Position numbers and translations under genes: made by a program
Part shown: in pieces, positions 514 through 54,450 of the stretch
Position numbering within the stretch: the first letter of the stretch is position 1
How the letters are laid out: every line of letters begins with the position of its first letter
NCBI RefSeq assembly: GCF_016859285.1
Contig: NC_053418.1
Span: 20,766,829 to 20,830,828 of the forward strand
Direction: 5' to 3'
DNA from: Xiphias gladius
Taxonomy: Eukaryota > Chordata > Actinopteri > Istiophoriformes > Xiphiidae
Length of the DNA stretch: 64,000 nt
The notes under the pieces: model-generated
Told to the model about the DNA's origin: nothing
What the model saw: the letters and a program-made list of their open reading frames with translations, nothing else
Databases searched by the model: none

Positions 514-604
514 AGGAATGATCTGGCCACATACTCCAATGGGCTCATGTCGTGTGTAAGTAAAGTACTCTCCATCTAAAAAAACCCCAAATATATATAT
601 ACAA

Positions 605-663
<59 letters not shown>

Positions 664-3600
664 GTGCTCATTCATGATCACTTTGAACCCACTGTGGCTT
701 TTTTTTATGTCAAAACATAATTGTCAAACATGGCAGTATCTCTGTATATAAACTTAATCTATAATTTAAGGTTACGAGGAATCAGAGTGCTGAAAAGATG
801 GCAACTCACCTATGGGGATGGTTTTGCCATGAATCTTGTCTGCCCAGCCACCATAATATCTCAAGGTTTTGATCGTGGCCATCAGATCTACAAAATATGC
901 TATGAGAAAGACTTTGCCAGAGTCGAGAGACTCTAGGGTCTAGAAATAACAACAAAAAAAAACCTTGAAATTAGTGTACAAGTGATATTACTTCATTGTA
1001 TTAATCCAGTTGATCTTTCACTCTTTCACAAAACTAAATTTTGGGGAGTAATATTTAAACTGATGATGTATTGTGTATGTTCCTCACTGCCAGTAGTAGC
1101 CGGTCTCTCTCCACTAAGTCAGCAAGTCTATTAAGTAGATGACCTCGGTCTGAGGCGTCCATGCATCGCCATGGTGACCCCATCTGGAAGGTGGCTCGAG
1201 CACTCCTCACCGCCTTGTCCACATCTTCCTACAAGAGGTTCAATTTGACGAAGTGGTCACAAAACTCAAGTCAATTTCAGTTTTGTAGCCCAATATCACA
1301 AATCGCTAATTTGCCTCAAAGGGGTTTTACAATCTATACAGCATACGACACCCTCTATTCTTAGACCCGGGATTCAGATAAGGAAAAACTCCCCCGAAAA
1401 AAAACAACCTTTTAACTGGGAAAAAAATGGAAGAAACCTCAGGAAGAGCAACAGGGTAGGGATCCCTCTTGCTCTGCAGAACTCTAGAGACTCAGAAACA
1501 TCTGTATAAAAAGCATAACATGGTACAATGAACGTACTCCACCACCTTCATTTTGTCAAATTCTTGCTAGTACAGAGGTGAAAAGCACTTCTAAGTTACT
1601 GGTGATGTATAATATACTCACCGCATCAGCCTCCTCCACTTCACACAGCAGCTCTCCTGTGGCGGGATTATACACAGGAATCTTTCTCCCGCTGCATGAC
1701 TCATGCCACTCGTTATTGATGAACAACTGAGATGCCAGAGGAGAATTAGAAAGCAATAACACACACACAGAAACAGATTCTTCAAGTCCGTTTTTTTCTT
1801 TGAGTTTTATCTCCTCCACTTTTTGTCTCAAAGCAGATCAAAGACAGTCCTAAACATATGGTGAAGCGTATCAGCTCCGCTCAGCCTGATGAAATTAATA
1901 ACAGGCTCCCTGGATTTAGTGGGAGTCATTTTGCCTGCTCTGGTATTTTTATGAGGTGCATCTGCATGCTGTAAAGCAGGGAGACTATTTTTAGGTAATT
2001 GCCTTCATCAGTACCCTAACTGATAAAGGACCTGTAAATATTTTCCCATGTTCATCGTGTTTCATCTTGTTGAATCCACATTTCCATTCTCCTCTAATTA
2101 CAAGCAGACACAGCATAGTTTTCATTTTCATTTTGGACACAAACTATGAATACTAAATGACTACATCTCTGGGACACAATGCCGTTTTAAAGGGCAACTG
2201 AACCAATTATCAAGAGGTTGATTCCCCCAACTACAGACCAGATGATGAGACTCAATCTGCCTAAGAAAGCAACCCAGTTAGAAAATGCCCACCGGGATAC
2301 ATGATTAATGTTAGGATAAGGATAAAAGGTAAATATCCAACCCATAAAACACCTCAGTTTTTAACAAAAAAAAAACCCTACAAAAAAACAAACAGAATTG
2401 TTATCAAAACTTGGCTTCCTAATGTAAGACACCTACAAGGATCCCATGCTAGGTACCATGCTAATGACTGAGAAAGCCAAACCCAACATATGCCAAAAGA
2501 GGTTGATTTACTTGTTCTAATGAAACCCTTAAATCCTTAGTTTCTTATTGGGAAACTATATGGATCTCTGTGTACTCCATGCATTTTTGTTATGAGCTGA
2601 ATTGCCCTCCAGGGACAAAGAAACCTGAACCAAACTGGAGCTTGGATCATTCCTCACATTTGGTTCAGCCTTGATTGCTTTGACTCTTGACTGCTGGGTA
2701 CAGCTCACCTTAGTGTATTGAATTGGGGGATCTTGGACTGGCATGGGCAGGGCCTGCGTCTCAGGTCTTTCTACATGCTGTGATGCGTGGTTTTGGTTTG
2801 GACCCCGGTGGTCGCACCCATTCCCAGACTGCTGCTGGTTGCCGTTGTCAGACTGGGAGTCCATGTTTGCGTGTTTTCCATCTAAAAAAGACACAAATGG
2901 AAGCCAGTGTCCACCCAAGCATTTCTTTGTGCATATACTGTACTGCATGTGTGTGTGACCTCTTGATTGTGAAAGTTAATATCTGGATCACTGAGTGAGA
3001 ATACTTCCTTTCGTGGTTTGTCATAACCCTGTGCATGAGATGCCATCCCAACCCAGTGGAGTAACAAAAACTGTGCCAAATGAGGTTCTGGCATTGTAAG
3101 CAGGGTAACACCATCGGGTCGAGGGTTACGAATGGCACCGAGAAGTCGGGCTGGCTCTGAGCGGTGGATTGGACTGACCTCATTTGGTCAGAGGGGATCA
3201 GAGAGCAGCAAGATGCAGGCCGGAGCACAATACTACCAGAGGTGTGCTTCTTACAGATTTGCCAAAAAACTCCAAGCATTGTACTGGCTCATTTGTAAGA
3301 AACAATGAAGGGGTGATTAAGAAGATTCCATTTTACATACACAGATACCAACAGCTACATTTAATCTCTGCACACACACAAATAAATAGCAAAGATTAAT
3401 ATATTGCTCTTTAGTACGTACTAAAGGTTTCTATGTTTCTCTGTTTTATCTCTGTTTTATATTGATTATATTGAATATCTTTGCTCTTGGACTTGGACAA
3501 AACAAGCACTTTGCATATGTAACTTTAAGCTTGTAACGACGAGCATTGTTCACGGTTTTCTGACATTATGTAGACAAACCAGTTAATCCGTTAATTGAGA

Positions 3601-3819
3601 AAATACTCAGCAGGTCGCATTGGGAGGAAAAGGAATTATTAGCTTTAACATTAATTATCAAAGGTGAACTAGTTGGATTGGATTTGTATTTACCCTGAGA
3701 GGAATTACAGTCTTTCACTATAAAACATAAAAAGAAGTCTAAAAAAAAGTTTTGTTACCTGTGGGTGATGCTGATGAGGTGCCTCCAGTCTGGTGGACTC
3801 CCACTCCGGTCACCGGCAT
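514..3819 (-). CDS. aldh1a1: Retinal dehydrogenase 1 (aldehyde dehydrogenase 1A1), 5' part: six coding exons, gene continues past base 1
   Basis: Cytosolic NAD-dependent enzyme family oxidising retinal to retinoic acid. Exons read on the minus strand: 3819-3759, 2881-2709, 1726-1622, 1228-1088, 939-810 and 575-514. All have GT donors and AG acceptors, phases agree throughout, and they give 224 residues. Exon sizes 105, 141, 130 and 62 nt fit my recollection of the ALDH1A family structure. Recognisable family blocks are [52 protein letters not shown] and [30 protein letters not shown] and TIPIDG favour ALDH1A1 over 1A2 or 1A3 as I remember them, and the neighbours cyp1d1 and anxa1 agree. The catalytic cysteine and glutamate lie outside the window, so intactness of the whole gene cannot be judged; no disablement is visible here. 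The first 78 residues, ahead of the conserved part, come from two exons and are low in complexity and roughly twice the family's usual leader. Alternatives are another ALDH1A paralogue, or a gene broken further 3'. Confidence 0.88.
605..657. repeat. (AT)n(AC)n microsatellite beside the 62-nt aldh1a1 exon
   Basis: AT dinucleotides run to about 624, then AC from 625 to 657. On the gene strand this is a TG tract followed by a TA tract, ending about 30 nt before the acceptor of the exon that begins at 575, so it occupies the branch-point region of that intron. Confidence 0.95.
1262..1482 (+). repeat. Dispersed teleost interspersed repeat (SINE-like), within an aldh1a1 intron
   Basis: The stretch contains the words AGCCCAATATCACAAAT, TTGCCTCA, ACACCCTCT, AAGGAAAAACTCCC, GAAACCTCAGGAAGAGCAAC and GGGATCCCTCTT. 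These are consecutive blocks of a short repeat that I recognise as very common in percomorph genomes. It lies between the aldh1a1 exons at 1228 and 1622. Class assignment (SINE or the 3' tail of a LINE) is uncertain. Confidence 0.7.
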
Positions 3820-4080
3820 GTTGCTCTCCGCTGCCTCTCGCCGCCAGCGGACCGTAGACGCGCCGTGCAGCTTTATATAAACCTGCGGCTGTCTGCGCCA
3901 GGAAACAGAAAACGGCAGCATAACGTGCCGGAGCACCGGGAGTCCTCCTTGGTCCTCTAAGGGTCCCCCCCCCTGCACGCGCTAATCCCCGTTCAGACGT
4001 AACCAGTCCCCGTTTACCCCACGTGCCCCGCGAGGCAGGCGCGCGCACCGCTCAGTTGATCTGACTGTGAAACGCCGTAG
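3820..4080 (-). promoter_or_regulatory. aldh1a1: aldh1a1 promoter and short 5' UTR
   Basis: The minus strand carries a TATA box (TTTATATAAA, 3872-3881) about 53 nt before the first ATG at 3819. This predicts transcription start near 3845 and a 5' UTR of about 25 nt. The flank 3840-4080 is GC- and CpG-rich against an AT-rich background, with a CACGTG E-box near 4020-4025. I saw no clear direct-repeat retinoic acid response element. The start site is inferred. Confidence 0.6.
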
Positions 4081-7302: not shown

Positions 7303-9221
7303 ATGAGACTGACGTTTGGGACTCTGCCCATCAAGGAGAACCCTTGTGCTTCTCTGTCTAGTGTCACTGTTGGTCTGTGTCTTCTCACCCTCCTCCTGAT
7401 GGCCCTCAGGGGCCGAAGGAGCCACCATCAAACCTCCAAATTGGACCACCTAAAATATCCCCCTCCTCCTGGCCCTACACCGTGGCCCCTTGTCGGCAAT
7501 CTGCTCCAGATGGGGGACCAGATTCATCTTTCTCTAACCCGCTTGAGGCTCCAGTACGGTGATGTTTTCAAGGTATATACAGTAAAATGAAACATTTTAT
7601 AGAGGCAAAGGCTTTGTATTTGTTTTTTTTTTTTCAATCATTTGTTCATTCTATCACTACAGATGCGTCTGGGCTCTTTGACTGTTGTCGTCCTGAGTGG
7701 ATATACCACCATCAGACAGGCGCTGGTTCGGCAGGGGGAAGCTTTTGCTGGGCGACCTGACCTTTTCACCTTTTCTGCCGTAGCCAATGGGACCAGTATG
7801 ACCTTTAGTGAGAAGTACGGACCGGCCTGGATGCTCCATAAGAAGCTGTGTAAGAATGCCCTCAGGTCTTTCTCCCAGGCTGAGCCCAGGGGATCTGGTG
7901 CCACATGCCTGTTGGAGGAGCATGTCTGTGCTGAGGCTGCTGAGATGGTGGAGGTGATTCGGGAACAGGTTGCTCTTAAAGGGGAAATGGGCCAAGATGT
8001 GACGGGTATAGATCCAGTGGTGCCCCTGGTAACCTCAGTGGCAAATGTTGTCTGTGCCCTCTGTTTTGGGAAAAGGTATGACTACAATGACAAGGAGTTT
8101 CTCACTATTGTCCACATCAACAACGAGGTCCTGAGGATCTTTGCAGCAGGGAACCTGGCTGATTTTTTCCCTGTGTTTCGCTACTTTCCGAGTCCATCTC
8201 TGAGGAAGATGGTCCAGCACATCCGCAGGATGAATGGATTCATGGAGAGGAGCATTGAGGAACACATCAACACCTTTGATAAGGCAAGGAGACCCAGCAG
8301 ATTCACTGGTAGACAAGAATTTATATTGTTTAGGGGGGCGAAAAATGCAAAAGGCAATGCATAATTACACATTAATACAGTCACCGTAAATTGGAAACCA
8401 TTGTTGTTTTGCACGACAAGACATTACTGTATATGTTGAGGAACAAAATCAGCCTCTTATGATTTCAGGACTAAGTTCATTAGATATTTTAAAAGTCTAT
8501 CTGTTCCAATATGTTTTTATTTTGGTTTTAATATTGCGCTGTTTTTTGGCACCTGTAAAGAAAACTAAAGTACATGGGCAAAGCACAATTTAAGAGTTTT
8601 GAAGGACACACAATAGAAAATAGATATTTCAAAGAAAGGGACAAAAATTTCTCATGCCTACGCAGACCAAGCCACCATAATGAGTGGTAAAATATAATTA
8701 TGTATTATGATGACTAACTGATCACTGTTTTTTATTGAGTCTTATCTTGAACTTTGCCAATCTATGCAAAGTGACCACAAAATACAAACAAAATATTTTC
8801 AGGACAGCCTAATGTGGCTGATGGCGTGTCTGTAAGTGTTGTTTTCTTTAGATCTGTCCCACTAATTTGCTGTCCATTATTTAATCTGACATTGCACTCA
8901 TGTAGTAGTAGCTGTGTGTGCAACTGTAGCCAAAAAAATAACAAACAAGTCCCCTGGGAGGGACCTTTGTTCTTGTGCAGAGTGGCTAAAATGTTCGCAC
9001 ACACTCTAATTAGGAATTAGCAACCCACTGGAAGACACGCGTCGTACCATAACTGATTACTGTCTCTTCCCTAATTATTGCTTTTAAATTCTGAACCTCT
9101 ATTTCTGCACAATCACAAATCACTCTATTGTTAATAAAGATAGCTTGATGCTTCAGTGATGATAACGACAATGATTTAAGAAAGACAGAACCACAGTCAA
9201 ATGATGACTTTCCTGTCATAT

Positions 9222-9267
<46 letters not shown>

Positions 9268-10342
9268 TGTGATTGCAGAACTGTATCCGGGACATCACAG
9301 ATGCTCTGATTGCACTTTGTGAGGACAGGGAAGACAATACAGAAACATCTGTGCTCTCCAACTCTCAGATCATTCACACTGTTATTGACATCTTTGGAGC
9401 AGGTTAGACACACTGCAAATCAGTGACATCTCACTTCTATTATCATTGATGACAAATAGTGTTGGCAATGACATTAAATTGATCATACTGATGAAGGCGA
9501 TCAATCTCTTCACTGCAGTTGTATTTTTTGTGTTTTTCTAAAGGATTTGACACCATCATTGCTGGTTTACAGTGGAGCCTGTTGTACCTCATCAAGTTTC
9601 CTGACATCCAGGACAGAATACACCAGGAGATAGGTAATGTCTTATGTTGTAATATTACATATCGCTGCTATCCGTATTATATAAAATGTACTGTGATTCT
9701 ATTTTTATTTGTATACGAAGATAAACCTTTGCGTGCATGTATCTCATCAGAAGAGAAAGAATTCATGGTATGATAAATAGTGAGGGCCTATCCAGGGTCC
9801 GGTCTCATAATTTACTCATAGAAGAAATAGAAGATTGCTCATTAATGATTTACACATCGCTAATGAGAAAAGATTGCGGCGGGTCGTTTATTATTGATAC
9901 CGCAAAACTACTAACTTTAGAGAAGAAAGTGTTGCTTCACATACAGTAGGTCTTAATATTGGAGATATGAAGTAGACACAGAGACCAATACCAAATTTAG
10001 CTCTTATCTGATAAAATATGCACCACAAAGGATTCATAAAGTTAAAAGATGTTTTTTAGGACATAAACAGGTGAAAATGCATCTCTTTGTAAAATATTTA
10101 TTAGCATCACAGGAGTAGCCAGGCATATTTGATGTCCGTTAGGAAGTATCAAAATTTCAGGCAAAATCAACATAATAAAGACCCAACAATGGCCAACCCG
10201 AGTGCTCTTCCCGAACAGACAGAATCTGACAGCCACGAGAGAAACTCACAAAAGATCAGTCCAATTTGCTGATGCCAGAGCTACTTTTGATGTGGGCTGA
10301 CAGAACTGGTGCTGTCTGTTCTGAGGCACGTTGCATTTTCAC

Positions 10343-10379
<37 letters not shown>

Positions 10380-12163
10380 CTGACACTAAGAGAAGACTGG
10401 ATGAGTCAGAATGAGAGAGGGAGGCACAAACAGCCAGAGAAAGACAAAAAGGTTAGAGAGTTGTTCCAGACTGACACAAAGGCGGTAACACGCAAGGCAT
10501 TGAACACAAAGTTTAACATTCTTCACATTCTCATCAATTGAACTAAATTTAAATAAACACAATTTATTGACTAAGAAACTTTTATCTATTGTTTACAGCA
10601 GGTTCACCACTTTACTAGAAACCTTATTGGTGAACAAGTGAGAGAATTTTTTATTCATTTGAAAGATGAGCATACCTTATGTAACCAAGTCTGAATGAAA
10701 ACTAATCATCATGCAGTTATTTTAGAAACCCACTAATTAGCTGTAGAGTGATTTGATATCATTGCAGACCCCAACTTGTTGGGCTCTACTGGCCAAACCC
10801 TGACTTAACTTGCATCCCAGCTGAGGAGCTATCACCCCTGTATTGTATCTAGTTTGTATTGCAACACCCTGCACCAACTCCTAAAGGGCGGAAATATATC
10901 TGTGTTCGTTATTGTGAACAGCCTGTACAAGTTACTCACAGGTCCTCATAGTTTCATAAACGTTATCAGCCATCATGGTCCATGAAGCCCTAGTTTAACA
11001 CTGCTCTTGACCACTTCATTGTCACCCATTTGGGTGAACTTCCTGGTGACTTTACGAGTTGAAGAGGAGCACCTGAATGCACCTGCTGTTTTGGTCTCAG
11101 TGAGGACAAACATTTGAGACATCACATTTGGGGAGGTTTTGGGAGGTCAGCCTGGACTTGAGGTACATTTTGAGGTAACATTCTCCTGCCCAAAGAAACT
11201 GAGATGCAGATTATGTTTCAGGGGCACCTCTTTTCAAGATTTGCACAGTGCTCAGAATAATAATCTATTTCTAAATATCTATTCAGTCAAAGAAAAATAT
11301 CTAGTTCTACAAGTTGTGACAACTGATTTTTGGAACTATGAAACTCACCAGTTTTCCATAAATTTCTGATGGATTTTGGTGTTTTTTTTTCTTTTGTAGA
11401 TAACCACATTGGCACAGCCAGACTGCCCATGTTTTCAGATAAGCCCAAGATGCCTTTCACGGAGGCGTTCATATATGAAGTGTTTCGTCATGCTTCCTAC
11501 GTCCCTTTCACCATACCTCACTGGTAAGACAAATGTTTTGTGCACAGTAAATTTGAGGTTGTCTGTAGTGTTAATAATGCTTTCCTCTCCTTTCCTCTCT
11601 TTAAGCACTACAACAAATCTCACCCTGAATGGATATTTCATTCCTAAAGACACATGTGTCTTCATTAACCAGTATCAAGTCAATCATGATACGTGAGTAG
11701 CCACAAGCAGTCATCACTTAATAATGACTTTGAATTTGACTTTCATAAGACATGCTACTGTATCAGTAAAGAGTGAAATAATGTATGCCAGTCTCTTTTA
11801 ACATTATCTTTTCAGTTGATAGTAATGTAAAATTCTGTTTTATTGGTTTATTGATTTTCATCTTTCTCACTCTGTCCTAGTGATCTTTGGGGTGACCCGG
11901 ACACATTTCGCCCTGAACGCTTCCTGGGTCCATCAGGACTCCTCAACAAGGAGCTGACGGAAAAGGTTCTCATCTTTGGCATGGGGAAGAGACGCTGTCT
12001 TGGTGACGGATTTGCACGCTTGGAGATGTTTGTCTTTCTCACCACGCTGCTCCACGGACTGCGGATTGAAACTGTTCCAGGGCAGGAGCTGGATCTCAGC
12101 ACTGATTTTGGTCTGACTATGAAACCACGTCCATACAGGATTACAATCTCCTCGAGGTTTTAG
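7303..12163 (+). CDS. cyp1d1: Cytochrome P450 family 1 subfamily D (CYP1D1), complete
   Basis: Haem-thiolate monooxygenase anchored in the ER. Coding exons: 7303-7572, 7663-8283, 9279-9402, 9544-9633, 11400-11523, 11606-11692 and 11881-12163, in phase, 532 residues. An N-terminal hydrophobic anchor (about 18-35) is followed by a proline-rich hinge [14 protein letters not shown] (53-66). The I-helix motif AGFDT is at 338-342, the K-helix ExxR at E395-R398, PERF at 450-453 and the haem loop [10 protein letters not shown] at 471-480 with ligand Cys478. Sizes 124, 90, 124 and 87 nt match CYP1A exons 3-6, so the gene belongs to the CYP1A/1D branch, not single-exon CYP1C or two-exon CYP1B. Its place between aldh1a1 and anxa1 equals that of human CYP1D1P, hence CYP1D1. 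Oddities: an additional 90-nt intron splits the usual large first coding exon, and the second intron uses a GC donor (AAG|GCAAGG). CYP1A is the main alternative. No disablement seen. Confidence 0.9.
9228..9270 (+). repeat. (GT)n microsatellite at the 3' splice site of cyp1d1 exon 3
   Basis: GT dinucleotides run to about 9264, followed by TTGTGTGATTGCAG and the exon at 9279. The repeat therefore replaces most of the usual polypyrimidine tract. Confidence 0.95.
10342..10379 (+). repeat. (GA)n microsatellite in cyp1d1 intron 4
   Basis: A run of GA dinucleotides with one interruption (GATAGA), within the 1.77-kb intron between the exons ending at 9633 and starting at 11400. The rest of that intron holds nothing I recognise. 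Confidence 0.9.
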
Positions 12164-15908: not shown

Positions 15909-18900
15909 CTCTTTCAGTTGGGCAATCTCTTTGCTTTCCCCATTTCTCTGAGCATTGTTGGTTATGGCTTTCACTCTTGTTGCGTAACGGGAAGGTTCAG
16001 GAAGTTCATGTGTTAGTTAAGAGTTTGTTAGCATTCAAATAAATCAAACAATGAATCTCTCTCTTTCTCTCTCTCTCTCTCTTCTAACATGAGAGATGTG
16101 AGAGTCTCATCAAGGTTGCATTCTGAAGGAGAAATGTTGACAATCATGAGGGTTTGGGCAATGCCACCCAGAGAGTCCTGCATGGACGATTGATGAAAAA
16201 GCACAGGTCGTTTTTGGGTGACCTGCATTTCTCCATCACAGTCCAAGACCACACCTAAGAAATCATGAGCAACGTAATGTTCATTTCTGCAATATTTATA
16301 ATTTGTATGTGAAGCCAACAAAGTTTGAATTAATTCAAAACTGTATCAGATTGGATCATCAAAGTTTACTGCTTCATATGTTTACCTGTGTCAGCTTGCT
16401 ATTCCTGTAAGGTACATGGGGGAATTCAGCAGACAAGGCGGAAATCAATTAAGGGCACTCAGAGACTTGTTAATGGAGTTAGCCTCCTGCGGAGGAGAGG
16501 AGAATTTAGAGAATGCTTTACACTCACTTGATGCGCAAGTCAGGACATGATATATGATCAAACCGTCGCTGGTGTTCCTTGGCGCCAGTCTTGGCTGCTC
16601 TCTCACTGCCTGCCAGGTCCACAAGGCTCAACTTACTAGTGCTCATGCTCCCATTGCTCAGATTCCTGCTCTCCACTATGATGCCAACAATGAGATTGGA
16701 GCCGGAACTCTCCACATTCATCTCTTGGGCAACATACACTAAAAGAAATTGTTGCAGATTATATTTCAAATGATCGACATATCAATTCATCATATAATCA
16801 TTCTGCTCTAAACAAGTTGTTTATGATTAAGGAGAAAAAATAGCATAAATACCAATAAAAACAAATAAACATGTGATAACACTATTATTCGTTGTCTTTT
16901 TTGTACCATCCTTCCTTCCAGAGTACTTCTAAGTGTGTCACCTTTTTACAACTTGGTCAGTATCCACTGTCAATAGACTGTATTTGTGATTGATATCAGT
17001 AATTTTGTAGTTCCTAGTGGCTCCAGCTCCTGATTACTAAAATATTAGGTGTGTCCTCTATGGACTCTGATGACCTGTGTGCATCTATAAAACAATGTTG
17101 CTGATTCACATTTTGGCTGCTCTGCCACTCACCGTCCAGTCCAGTAATGATGTACCGAGCTGATGTACCCCTCACACTGACTGTAACTAACACGATTAAT
17201 CCAAACCATTTAGCAGGGCCCTGTTTGAACTGGGTGGCATGGCACGGTACAGAGAACTCACTGGTGGCAGAGATGTGTCAGTTGGCACTGGCTTGCTGGA
17301 ACAGATCGTAGAGCTCCTGGGCACTGGAAGCATCCTTTGTCTCTGCTCCTTGGGCGAACACAACCCCCTTTCTGTTCCTCTTGATCTCCACCCGCCTGGC
17401 CTGGCCATGGGACTGGGACTGTGCATGGGCCTCACCAGCCAGGCTCACAAAGAGGTCCTGCAGCCTGTCGTTGTACAGCTCCAGCATATAGGACAAAACC
17501 TGAGGTAAAAGGATGAAGAAACACAGGGAGGAGGGGGAGCAGGGGGATGGCAGGGACAGCGAGGGAGAAAGGGATGGGAGACAAAAGGAAAGAGATAATT
17601 TGCGGTTCTCATAATTCATGTAACATCTAAGATCTTTGCTCCCAGTGAGCTCTATTTACATTGGTGATAGACTGCCTGTTACCTTGAAGTTGAATTTGAT
17701 ACTGTTCTCCTGTAGGATATCAAATATGGCATTATTATATCCTGGGGTTCTTCTGTTTCTTGTCCCCCACCATGGTGAAAGTCTTCCCTGAGCCGTCTGG
17801 CCCTACACAAAGATACAGATATCGTAGCCATCCATAGCTGACTGGATCAGTGTGTGGTGAAAATATTTTCTGAACTACTGAGCTGACAGTATTTAAACAT
17901 TTGTAGATCCTTGGATTACAGGCATCTCTGTGGGCCTCCATCAATCTGCTACATGACATTATTTAAGTAACTGTACCTTTACTCCGTTTTAATTAGCACA
18001 AATTGGTACTATAAATTATCGGAAACTACTTTTCAAATAAATTTAAGTTGGATCAAAAGAACACATTTGTTGCTGAACACCTTGTCAAACTGCAACTCCG
18101 TCTACCCACAAGGGATTTCCATGGTGACAGAGTAATCGATGGCCCCACCCTGAGCATCCTCGGTTGGGCTCACTGGTTGAATCCGACAAAACACACAGAT
18201 CTTATCTAAGGAAAAAAAACATTAGACATGAAGCCTTAATAACCTCAAAAAAAGTGAGAATTAAACTGAGCAAGCCTCACTTTTTGCTGTTTAATTTCAA
18301 GCATAAAAATTTAATGCTGGCTAATGTGTACCTCTCATATCTTCAACCATATTGTAGTATTTCTTCCTCATTGTTCTTTCTGAAGTGTAGTTTTCAATTA
18401 TTTACTTTTTCTCTTCTTTAATTTGCTTTAGCTTGAGAGAAGAGCATGATAACACATGGGTGTGACACTAAAAGGCTTACTAAAATTACTTAGTAATCTG
18501 GAAACTTAAAAACCTATAGAAAAGTCGATTGATTTGCTACAATGTACTCAAGGTGTTGATTAACAGTCAATAATGAATCCAGTGTATGACCTGTTATATT
18601 ACAATAGCAGGCATAATATGTATGATGCTTCATCAGCCCATGTAATTTACGTCAAATCCTAAGTCGACACTTGTAACGGTTCAGTTGGAACTGAAATCAT
18701 CAAATTCAGACAGAAAAACAGAAAAGGAAGGCCCACGTCCTCTGGTACACAAGTTTGTTTTTTAATATACTGGGAAATTATCATCAGTGTTTTACCCCTG
18801 AGGCCAGATTTGAACTGAGACACTGACTTGTATGATACAACACCAACCTGATCCTGCAGCAAGAGAATCTGCTGACTGACACTCTTCACTCCCTCTGTGC

Positions 18901-27884: not shown

Positions 27885-30800
27885 ATGTCTTTGATACAAG
27901 CCTTCTTGAAGCAGACAATCTATCTGGGCTTGCCCGATGACTCAGTACGTAACCTTGTGGGTCTGTTCCAGTTGCTAAGGCCAACCACCCTGTTTTTTCC
28001 TTCTTTTTTTTTTTCATCCTGTGGTATGTTCCAGTGGAAAAAAATTATCACGCAGAGTTTAGAGCGAGGGAAGCGGAGAAGTTTAGAAGATAGTGAGGGA
28101 AGAGAATGAATGAGTGGGATCTTAAATGGTGGATAGAGGGAAGGAAAAAGGAGTGGAGCAGAGCAGAAAGATAAGATTAGGACTATTATTAAAGAGAGAG
28201 GGAGTCTGGGTGGAAAAGATTATAGGCAATGAGAAAGATGACCATACAAACTCTTGTGAGTGTGTGACGTAAGAAACAGGAACTGGCACCCCTCCCTTTA
28301 CAAACTCTGCAAACACAATGCTACTTCTACTCTCCCTGGTTTCTCAATGTGAAGTAAGGGAAAGTTGCATAAAGGCATGCAGACTGATTTCAGTCTGTGC
28401 CTCTTCTCTTCTTTTATTGTTCAGGTCAGTCCAACACTGGCGTGCAGAGGCATTTTAAAGCGCACCTTCGTGGTATAGGGGCAGAGACGCAGGGCAGTGC
28501 CCACAGGCGTTTGTTTTTTTTTTTTTTTTTTTCTTTTTCTATTTTCTTTTGTATGTCTATTTTACAACCCACCTCGTGCACACCACTAAATAGAAGTCAA
28601 GTATTTACAAAACGTACAAATATCTCTGTTGTGTCGCTCAGGTCCTAAAAAACGAAGGAACGGTGACCGCAGCAACCAATTTCTGCCCAGGCGGAGATGC
28701 AGGAGTCTTGGATAAGGCCATCAAGGCGAAAGGTGAACTTAAAAAAATGTACACATGGAGTATTTGGAGCCTGTGTGAACATGTTCTGGCTTTACAATGT
28801 GTCTTTACTTCAAGTATGAAGGGCTAGCCTTTGTGGTAAGAACCTTAACACCCTCTGGTGGCAATCATGCATCATTACTCCAAAAATTGCAGTTGACTGT
28901 GGTAGAAAGTTGCCTCACATCTTTGTGTGGGCCTTTACACTGGAGAACAGATACTATAAGGGTTAAGATCTCAGCTGAATTGAATATTTGTCTCTGTCAT
29001 ACAGATGCAGAATGATCATGATTATATCCAATATCCTGTCATTTCTGCAGGTGTAGATGAGAATACCATTATTGAAATTCTGGTGAAAAGGAGCAACGAG
29101 CAGAGACAGCAGATCAAAGAGGCTTACCAGCAGGCCTGTGGCAAGGTATTGAGAACTACACAAAAATGTTCATAGCAAGAATGTGGTACACATTTTACAT
29201 TTTGTTTCAAAGTAGTTATGCACATGATCACATGCTCTCAAACACTTACGTTTACAACATCGGTTGTTCCCTCGTAGCCTCTGGAACCAGCGTTGAAGAG
29301 CGCTCTGAAGGGAGATCTGGAGGATGTGGTGTTGGCTCTGCTGAAAACACCGGCGCAGTACGATGCCCAGCAGCTGAAACTGGCTATGAAGGTGCACAAA
29401 CACACAAATGCAGTCTCACTTAAAATGAACATTTATATAAACATGAAAAATACTCGAGCCTTTAGAAACCAAGGACACTGGAACATATCTATGGTGAATG
29501 TTTCGATCTCACTTTTTTTTTTTTTTTTTTGTGCATAATGAAATTCACCCACTTCCACATATTCACATATTATTTTCTTAACAGTGGGAACAAGGTGTGT
29601 TTTTGTTTGAATTAGACCAGTGGAGAATAAGCTGTTTTTCTCTGTATCAAACTATCTATCCATGCATCCATGTCTCAGGGTCTGGGCACAGATGAGAACA
29701 CCCTGATAGAGATTTTGGCGTCACGGACCAACAGACAGATCCTGGATATAAAGACAGCCTACAAGGAGGGTGTGTAGCAACAAATTTTAAGCAACAAGCC
29801 TCAGTTTCATCAAGCTAGTGTTTGGAAATAGAAGTGATAGAACAGGTGACAGTGGAAAATTACAGCCTCGGGAATATGAGAGAAGGTTTACGCATCAGAA
29901 ATGGACTTGCTGAAACACAATTTGCTCATTCTGAACATTAATTTTGTATCTTCCTATTTTGCCTTCTTCACTAAGAATACAAGAAGGACCTGGAGGACGA
30001 CATCAGGTCCGACACTAGTGGAGACTTCAGGGCTGCCCTCCTTGCACTCTGCAAGGTAATTGTGTGTGTTTGCTTTCTGTCCCATTACTGTGGGTTTCCT
30101 TCCTTACTTGTTCCAGGATTTTTAATACACATTTACCACAGACAATTATTCAGTCACAAACATAACACTCCCTGGAGTGGTAGTGGTTTATAAACATAAA
30201 CCATCTCCCTACCTCAATACACACATATATGCTAACAAAATTGAGCCTATTGTGGCATTATATTTGGGCATCTTACAAGGGGAAATGCACAGGACAAACT
30301 CATAGGCTGAACATAAATTCCAGTTTGAATTAAGTCAAAAGCTGCATTTTGTTTAATGAGTGAGCTGTAGAATATCTGCTTTAATCTATCTGGTGGGTAA
30401 ATTAATTTCATTGTCTTATTTTCTTTGTTTGTTCTGCTTTTTAAACCTTGTCAACTTTCTTTTCGATCTGTGTGATAGATCTTTATTTATTAGGCAATAT
30501 CATATTTCTTGCCTATGCCAATATTTAGTTCTCATGTGCAAAAAATGTGTGATTGAATTGTTAAGATTTCCAGCGTCCAGCACATATTATATGATAGAAG
30601 CACCACATTTGAATATAAACGAGGACTGCTCTGAAATAGGGAGATGATATCACAGGTCCTATCTTAGGTATACAAACAGAGAAACCAGTTTCCTAATTGA
30701 CTTGCACATCATAAATCTCTTGCATCTATCTATCATTATCCCGCTCCATTCGCAGCAAGATGCTGCCTATGAAGGTTTGCTTCATTATCAATCAGGCTTG

Positions 30801-31937
30801 CACAGCAGTAAATTTAGATTTTTCAAGAATCTTTTGCTTTGAAAAATAAGCGACAGTGTGTCACACAGCAAACTGAAGTACAGCAAGTATAGTGCCTGGG
30901 TCATCCCAAACCCTCCCTTTGCTATCCCTCTACTATCTTAAAGGGATACTGAACTGTGTTTAGTCGGGTTCAATACAATGAAGTTGCTCTGTCTGTTTAT
31001 CACAGGCCGGTAGGACTGAAGGAGTTTCTGAGCAGCTGGTTGACAGTGATGCCAGGGCTCTGTACGAGGCTGGCGAGGGGAGGAAGGGCAAAGACTGCTC
31101 CATCTTCATTGAAATCCTCACCACCAGAAGTGCCCTTCATCTCCGCCAAGGTTAGCTGGCTGACTGCCTTATTTAGTAATATCTTACTAGTTCCTGTGTG
31201 GTCCTTTCAGATCTAACAGCCTTCCACTATGTCCTCTCCTTCAGTATTTGAGAGGTACTCAAAGTACAGCAAAGTGGACGTGGCCAAGGCTATCGACCTG
31301 GAAATGAAAGGAGATATTGAAAACTGTCTCACTGCAATAGGTAAAGGCAAAAACCTCTACTCTAATTCAAATACCTAAACATTCATCCAGTGATTTATGC
31401 ACAAACTTGATTTAAACTTGAACCTTTTTTTTTTTTTTTTTTTTAAATAACCATAGTGAAGTGTGCTGGAAGTAGGCCTGCATTCTTTGCTGAGAAGCTC
31501 TACTTGGCCATGAAGGTACAGTATGTTTAGGCCACTTTTACAAAATAAACTAAAAAATGCATGCAGGATGCTGTGCCTGCTGCCCCAGGCTTTCCCTGAC
31601 TGTCTCTTTTCTGACTGACTCTGCCCATTAGGGCAAAGGTACCCGCAAAAACATCCTGACCCGCATCATGGTGAGCCGCTCTGAAATTGACTTGAAACAG
31701 ATCAAGGAGGAGTACAAGAAAAACTACAACAAAACACTCTACCTTGATATTTTGGTGAGAAAACATCTTACCACAGATAATGACAATACACCCTTCCTCC
31801 ATACATAAGACAAATCACAAAACAAGATACAAAGGGGAACAGTTTAAAGATTTACTGACCATTTTTTTTTCTTTCAGGATGACACTAAAGGAGACTATGA
31901 GAAGATTCTGCTTGCTCTCTGTGGGGGGGAAAACTAG
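27885..31937 (+). CDS. anxa1: Annexin A1, complete
   Basis: Calcium-dependent phospholipid-binding protein acting at the inner face of membranes and, when released, in anti-inflammatory signalling. Coding exons: 27885-27944, 28642-28732, 29051-29145, 29278-29391, 29679-29769, 29976-30055, 31006-31150, 31245-31340, 31457-31515, 31632-31754 and 31878-31937. All are in phase and encode 337 residues. The N-terminal helix [10 protein letters not shown] resembles the ANXA1 leader (FLKQ conserved). Four annexin repeats follow: [40 protein letters not shown] and [19 protein letters not shown]. The end [17 protein letters not shown] is nearly that of mammalian ANXA1. The type II calcium loops GVDE and GLGT are present. 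Fish carry several anxa1 copies; which copy this is cannot be told beyond its synteny with aldh1a1 and cyp1d1. The 145-nt exon replaces two exons of the usual annexin structure. Confidence 0.96.
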
Positions 31938-32759: not shown

Positions 32760-33527
32760 CGCGGAAGAGGGATTGCTGTCACAGAACCTGGCAACCTCTT
32801 AGCTCATTCAGACCACAACTGTACGTAAACGAGCGGAGCTCCCTCCCCGGTTAGCGATCGCTAGGCTAACCAACTTTCTCTCTCAGTATGTGTTAAGATT
32901 TCTCTCATAACAGATACGGAACTATTTTTCTCATTGCAACAACCCCAAGTAATCATGACATGCTGAACAAATGTGTCTTAAAGCTGCTCGTTTACTAGGC
33001 TTAGCACGACAGCAAGCTAGCTAGCAAGCGGTAGCTAGTCAGACAGTGTGGAAACAAACTTAACTATTATACCTGTCAGTAAAATGTCAGCGATGCAAAG
33101 TCACGTTTGTGTTTAAGAATATACGAATTACATGATGAAATCCAATGTAGTCATCACAGTATTGAACATGTTTATGTACATAAGGCGTTTGACTTTGAGG
33201 GGGCTAACGTTAGCCAGGTTAACGTTACTGGCTACTTACCAGGGTAGAGAAGTGGTTAAAACTGCCGTAAAGACACATCCTTTAAAGGCTGCCTGCGGGA
33301 GCTGTGAAAGTCTTTAGCCACCCCGTAGCTGCTTCTTATCCACATCATTGTAAGTTTAACATCAATAACCCCGAACCTCACACGTCTTTTCATTTCAGGT
33401 CAATCAGTTCATCTGGGTCAGCTTGTCCATTTAAAGTACTCCCCTTTAATCAGAATGATGACAGTGACCTGACCAATGGACCACTGGAGGGTCTGCTCAG
33501 TGAGAGGGTCACGTTTTGAAGTAGATC
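32760..33527 (+). promoter_or_regulatory. mfsd3: mfsd3 upstream region with clustered GCTAAC/GCTAGC palindromes
   Basis: The 1.1-kb gap between anxa1 and mfsd3 carries several palindromic words. GTTAGCGATCGCTAGGCTAAC is at about 32851-32871, AGCTAGCTAGC near 33015, the perfect 12-mer GCTAACGTTAGC at 33203-33214, and GGTTAACGTTACTGG follows. A possible 5' UTR acceptor (TTTCAG) ends at 33398. The exact transcription start and any 5' UTR intron are undetermined. Confidence 0.45.

Positions 33528-54450
<20,923 letters not shown>

Follow-up and report, generated by a model that had tools for sequence, protein, structure and literature searches.

We found that the fish Xiphias gladius (NCBI RefSeq assembly GCF_016859285.1) very probably carries a complete ortholog of the vitamin A-processing gene aldh1a1, the sole copy found, at the ancestral vertebrate position in a teleost whose Hox complement is percomorph-like, and that this gene encodes a 557-residue aldehyde dehydrogenase. 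It lies on contig NC_053418.1, here chromosome C19, and begins in the window, by which we mean the whole stretch of 64,000 nucleotides (nt) that was analysed (C19:20766829-20830828). All three aldh1a genes, aldh1a1, aldh1a2 and aldh1a3, are thus present in a single teleost, as in tetrapods.

A complete gene model

The original prediction, made from the letters of the window, described six consecutive exons with frame and splice sites kept. These six exons were confirmed at the following positions:

3759..3819, minus strand: aldh1a1 exon 1 (61 nt), with ATG and GT donor, in frame with exon 2; putative start codon and predicted start of the leader
2709..2881, minus strand: aldh1a1 exon 2 (173 nt), AG/GT borders, frame kept; remainder of the leader
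1622..1726, minus strand: aldh1a1 exon 3 (105 nt), AG/GT borders, tblastn match to human ALDH1A1; ends in EEADA
1088..1228, minus strand: aldh1a1 exon 4 (141 nt), EDVDKAV...RDRLLLA, tblastn match to human ALDH1A1, splice borders
810..939, minus strand: aldh1a1 exon 5 (130 nt), TLESLDSGK...KTIPI, tblastn match to human ALDH1A1, splice borders
514..575, minus strand: aldh1a1 exon 6 (62 nt), tblastn match to human ALDH1A1, splice borders; exons 7 to 14 follow beyond the left window edge

AG is present at the five inner starts and GT at all six ends, and the frame is continuous. ALDH1A1-like residues, claimed for all six exons, were seen in the last four; the first two encode a low-complexity leader in which only the terminal IQYTK matches. 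Within intron 3, window positions 1262-1500 resemble a dispersed repeat, presumably of a type common in percomorph fishes.

A left flank of 30 kb was added and searched by tblastn with human ALDH1A1. The eight remaining exons (exons 7 to 14) were found at C19:20766811-20764347, open to the stop codon, with exon 7 starting 18 bases to the left of window position 1. What had been taken for an N-terminal half is therefore a half only by virtue of the window edge: its six exons are real, and the gene is complete leftwards. The full model runs from C19:20770647 to 20764347 and comprises 14 coding exons and 13 GT-AG introns without internal stop, giving a coding length of 1674 nt including the stop codon, or 557 residues. 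The protein ends in KISQKNS, the same C terminus as in mammalian ALDH1A1. Of the two options first considered, that the loss in teleosts was not universal or that this was a late relic broken further 3', the former is borne out by a full in-frame gene with catalytic Cys and Glu. The relic did not materialise, as the eight left-flank exons are in frame, contain zero stops and carry both of these catalytic residues. A retrocopy was rejected because of the 13 introns, and a pseudogene or 3' break because the full open frame was found.

On the joined model, the Pfam Aldedh profile scored 605.7 bits (E 6.3e-182) over positions 1-461 of 461, a value that excludes chance for the exon set. Asn169, Lys192, Glu268, Cys302, Glu399 and Phe401 (human numbering), which we take to be catalytic or cofactor residues, are all identical to those of human ALDH1A1 (6/6).

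The window protein served as query against the complete genome. Of 97 candidates 89 were scored, which gave 74 matches at E <= 0.001; no second copy or relic of aldh1a1 was found among these. Three related genes were present besides aldh1a1, at C1:18.453-18.467 Mb, C1:3.690-3.716 Mb and C22:1.296-1.307 Mb, and were modelled by splicing with exon lengths imposed on the search. The first (C1:18453427-18467207) is aldh1a2, with 82.5% identity to human 1A2. The second (C1:3689834-3715548) is aldh1a3, with 68.9% identity to human 1A3 (11/12 exons modelled, the absent last exon counted as mismatch), and the third is aldh2, in a partial model of 8/12 exons. The first exons of aldh1a2 and aldh1a3 were searched for, and none was found. 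Further matches, for example on C2, C4, C6, C10, C14 and C21, look like more distant ALDHs. The aldh1a3 and aldh1a2 genes share chromosome C1, and human ALDH1A3 and ALDH1A2 presumably likewise lie on one chromosome.

From the third exon on, the exon lengths of aldh1a1 are 105-141-130-62-129-114-103-185-165-158-75-73, presumably the same series as in human ALDH1A1. This series is not specific to 1A1. Exons of equal length (lengths imposed) fit at 12/12 places from the third exon in the aldh1a2 of the same fish, which is 70.6% identical to the window gene, and its aldh1a3 follows the common plan as well (11/12 exons modelled), at 65.6% identity with the unmodelled end counted as mismatch.

State of the gene

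At columns invariant in the other nine rows of a ten-row alignment, the window gene departs at 12/214, compared with 9/211 for the fish's own aldh1a2, 17/209 for its aldh1a3 and, for both human 1A3 and ALDH2, 11/213. For the mammalian rows of 1A1 and 1A2, each of which has a near twin in the set, the count is 0 to 2 of ~203. In the 10-row tree, the end branch of the window gene measures 0.17, between those of aldh1a2 (0.15) and aldh1a3 (0.25) of the same genome. The GC content at third codon positions (GC3) is 0.548, against 0.368 for the introns. When the 479-codon core was simulated with substitutions only, 30/500 replicates (6%) stayed stop-free at 5% divergence and 2/500 (0.4%) at 10%. Taken together, the open frame, the departures, the branch length and the GC3 would fit a working gene.

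It is improbable that this is an aldh1a1 pseudogene, either recently inactivated or unexpressed, in which decay has yet to reach the frame. The 12/214 departures speak for it when set against the mammalian 1A1 and 1A2 rows, whereas they resemble, as does the branch length, what is seen in the fish's own aldh1a2 and aldh1a3. Further evidence against it comes from the 14 exons without stop or frame break, given the simulated frequencies, and from the difference between GC3 and intron GC.

Assignment among the ALDH1A paralogs

The best PDB scores of the window protein were 856 bits for ALDH1A1, 846 for 1A2, 772 for 1A3 and 760 for ALDH2. The ALDH1A1 structures 4wb9 and 1bxs, presumably the human and sheep enzymes, align without gaps over 479 residues at 75% identity. 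Over the 479 residues, identity was 75.2% to human 1A1, 75.4% to sheep 1A1, 74.1% to human 1A2, 73.3% to rat 1A2, 69.3% to human 1A3 and 67.0% to human ALDH2. The window gene shares 15/47 of the residues private to mammalian 1A1, 8/54 of those private to mammalian 1A2 and 9/73 of those private to human 1A3; when the paralogs of the fish itself are included, the counts are 6/31, 1/20 and 2/13. With 1A3 and ALDH2 used to polarise sites, the window gene has the derived state of 1A1 at 6/14 and that of 1A2 at 3/16 (9/30 and 6/34 under a looser rule). Finally, 97 sites separate mammalian 1A1 from 1A2, and here the window gene agrees with 1A1 at 40, with 1A2 at 28 and with neither of the two at 29.

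Because the gap between the 1A1 and 1A2 scores is small, we built trees. The window gene grouped with 1A1 with a support of 88/97 in a tree of 7 rows, 73/95 in one of 10 rows that includes the fish's own paralogs, and 94/94 in one of 11 rows, which adds a chicken ALDH1A1 row. In the 10-row tree, the fish's own aldh1a2 groups with human 1A2 (100/99) and its aldh1a3 with human 1A3 (98/97). The original prediction had named a place inside teleost aldh1a2 or aldh1a3 as telling against it. We found no such placement relative to the fish's own paralogs: in the 10-row tree, a sister relationship with aldh1a2 was rejected (p 0.0013, log-likelihood (lnL) 45.9 worse), as was one with aldh1a3 (p 0.013), so that a copy of aldh1a3 is rejected too. 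Grouping with the whole 1A3 clade gave p values of 0.016 (7 rows), 0.038 (10 rows) and 0.039 (11 rows).

Several points weigh against the gene being a complete aldh1a1 ortholog. Two ALDH1A1-type chains score below 1A2 (7yob, 840.8 bits; 1o9j, 826.8 bits), identity to 1A2 is only ~1% under that to 1A1, and the 1A2 state at 28/97 discriminating sites is part of the same picture. In the approximately unbiased (AU) test, a placement with the whole 1A2 clade was not rejected (p 0.138, 0.283 and 0.065 for 7, 10 and 11 rows). The ALDH1A1 branch is unstarred in 3/3 trees, and the rows hold no gar, bichir, bowfin or other teleost or percomorph aldh1a1. At pocket positions 458, 460 and 304, the fish protein has N, M and L, where human 1A1 has G, V and I; sheep ALDH1A1 carries S at position 458. 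The start site and the 78-residue leader are predicted from the open frame and splice borders, and the gene model comes from genomic sequence.

The locus and its neighbours

Two genes to the right of aldh1a1 were located in the window:

7489..12124, plus strand: cyp1-family gene, cyp1d1 by position, the right neighbour of aldh1a1; five tblastn pieces with a human CYP1A1 query
29038..31928, plus strand: annexin gene, anxa1-like; seven tblastn pieces with a human ANXA1 query

One exon of the cyp1 gene scored best with CYP1A1 in the PDB (193.6 bits), followed by CYP1A2 and CYP1B1. The gene matched Pfam p450 with 105 bits and has at least one long intact exon, at window positions 7603-8361 on the plus strand, with 253 codons open; the human gene at this place is presumably the pseudogene CYP1D1P. 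The annexin gene matched Pfam Annexin with 132 bits, and in the PDB, annexin VI (3 stretches) and chain 6tu2 (2 stretches) score highest, with annexin I next. Directly left of aldh1a1, two tandem TMC1/2-type genes occupy C19 ~20740409-20763300 on the plus strand, with TMC domain matches at C19:20746040 and C19:20761296. They are 65% identical over 865 aligned residues, a figure summed over 20 matches, some of them overlapping and out of frame. Both contain a long run rich in Lys and Glu close to the 5' end.

The order is thus tmc-tmc-aldh1a1-cyp1-anxa1, with aldh1a1 on the minus strand and the tmc pair, cyp1 and annexin on the plus strand. Human TMC1, ALDH1A1 and ANXA1 presumably have the orientations +, - and +, in agreement with the fish locus. 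The fish order matches the human one, TMC1-ALDH1A1-ANXA1 (PMC2682703), and Tmc1, Cyp1A/D and Anxa1 make up the jawed-vertebrate synteny set (PMC10350081). The ancestral position beside cyp1d1 and anxa1 that had been proposed for the gene therefore holds. The sequence by itself favours 1A1 without fully settling the matter, and the locus tips the balance.

It is highly unlikely that the gene is instead a second aldh1a2 copy from the teleost duplication, kept and then moved beside cyp1 and anxa1. The identity to human 1A2 (74.1%, near the 75.2% for 1A1) and the AU values for the whole 1A2 clade in the 10- and 11-row trees are compatible with such a copy. However, the expected sisterhood with the fish's own aldh1a2 is the very grouping rejected above, that aldh1a2 is closer to human 1A2 than the window gene is (82.5% versus 74.1%), and the neighbours are those of ALDH1A1. 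Equally hard to credit is a retained "gone missing" ohnolog of ALDH1A3 from the early vertebrate duplications, of a kind proposed earlier (PMC2682703) and sharing 9/73 human-1A3-private residues, since grouping with 1A3 is disfavoured in all three trees, the score to 1A3 is 772 bits versus 856 to 1A1, and the position is that of ALDH1A1.

Three other open frames were noted in the window. One between cyp1 and annexin, at 17281-17655 on the minus strand, is kinesin-motor-like, its Pfam Kinesin score of 20.9 bits being below the cut-off of 29.3. Two on the plus strand are major-facilitator-like, at 33525-34238 (Pfam Acatn 60.8 bits, MFS_1 39.4) and, by eye, at 43609-43959; they are perhaps mfsd3.

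A teleost genome

An aldh1a1 gene in gar or bowfin would be no surprise, and gar serves as the ray-finned representative in a published Aldh1a1/2 analysis (PMC10350081). We searched the genome for Hox genes with a probe, scoring 150 of 174 candidates. Six Hox9-type homeoboxes were found on six chromosomes (C3, C11, C16, C18, C22 and C24), with 137-149 bits and 85-88% identity to the probe, and further Hox-like homeoboxes on a seventh, C9. Ray-finned fishes that did not undergo the teleost duplication should have four Hox clusters, and six clusters with a hox9 gene are in keeping with percomorph-like fishes. With Hox9-type genes on six chromosomes, the genome is therefore that of a teleost, and a non-teleost fish such as gar or bowfin was rejected.

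Predicted leader, possible promoter and substrate pocket

Human ALDH1A1 has 22 residues ahead of IFINN, whereas the fish gene has a predicted leader of 78 residues, spread over two exons before the conserved part and including a Gln/Asn/Ser-rich stretch. The end of exon 2 aligns to LTDLKIQYTK, which precedes IFINN in human ALDH1A1, with IQYTK matching (tblastn, 20.8 bits), and a second in-frame ATG lies within exon 2. Upstream of the proposed start, one element was read off the sequence:

3871..3879, minus strand: TATA-like box TATATAAAG, 51 nt before the proposed start codon

This box may have a promoter function. Similarly, the 78-residue leader may be a novelty peculiar to the surviving enzyme, and given the N, M and L in the pocket of this enzyme, its substrate preference may differ from that of the human enzyme.

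Published record and proposed history

Canestro et al. 2009 did not find aldh1a1 in zebrafish, stickleback, medaka or pufferfishes, placed the loss as probably predating the teleost radiation, i.e., in stem teleosts, and raised a possible connection with tandem tmc duplications in the gap (PMC2682703). The absence is repeated for zebrafish, sea bass and teleosts at large in later papers, namely a sea bass study of 2019, a zebrafish review of 2023 and a zebrafish gonad study. However, in Feng et al. 2015 Nile tilapia Aldh1a1 (XP_003445644.1) serves as an outgroup, and its expression in the gonads is given as very low (PMC4432375). This teleost gene of the same name is likened to ours by name only, its orthology being undiscussed in the text at hand, but with its accession in print the gene is already of a known kind. 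Expression of an aldh1a1 has also been reported in Atlantic salmon (PMC13193417), and an aldh1a1 is listed as a hub gene in Lateolabrax maculatus (PMC9456278). Among the PMC matches listed, subscription journals being outside the scope, no paper arguing for retention of aldh1a1 in teleosts was found. A teleost aldh1a1 thus already exists in annotation, and the claim of a universal loss is outdated.

Since aldh1a1 is apparently intact in this teleost, there was no single loss in the ancestor of all teleosts. We consider it likely that aldh1a1 was kept past the stem teleosts and the teleost duplication, survived at full length in at least one lineage and was repeatedly lost in model fishes. On this view, there would have been more than one loss, each of them later, in the lineages leading to zebrafish, medaka, stickleback and pufferfish. 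The tandem tmc pair and an intact aldh1a1 are found together here, so duplication of tmc was not in itself enough to eliminate aldh1a1.

The enzyme would be a cytosolic retinaldehyde dehydrogenase dependent on nicotinamide adenine dinucleotide (NAD). Asn169 and Lys192 would position the substrate and NAD, Cys302 would attack the aldehyde and Glu268 would activate water. Retinaldehyde would thereby be converted to retinoic acid, and other aldehydes may be cleared too.

The loss of aldh1a1 in teleosts has served as a case study showing how surviving paralogs are reshaped when genes are lost after a genome duplication (PMC2682703). This idea becomes testable in a fish that has kept all three aldh1a genes, and the loss or losses would now be dated after the teleost stem and decoupled from the tandem tmc duplication. 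Overall, the enzyme is of an ordinary type and its place in the tree is the unexpected part; its presence overturns an often-repeated statement on teleosts.

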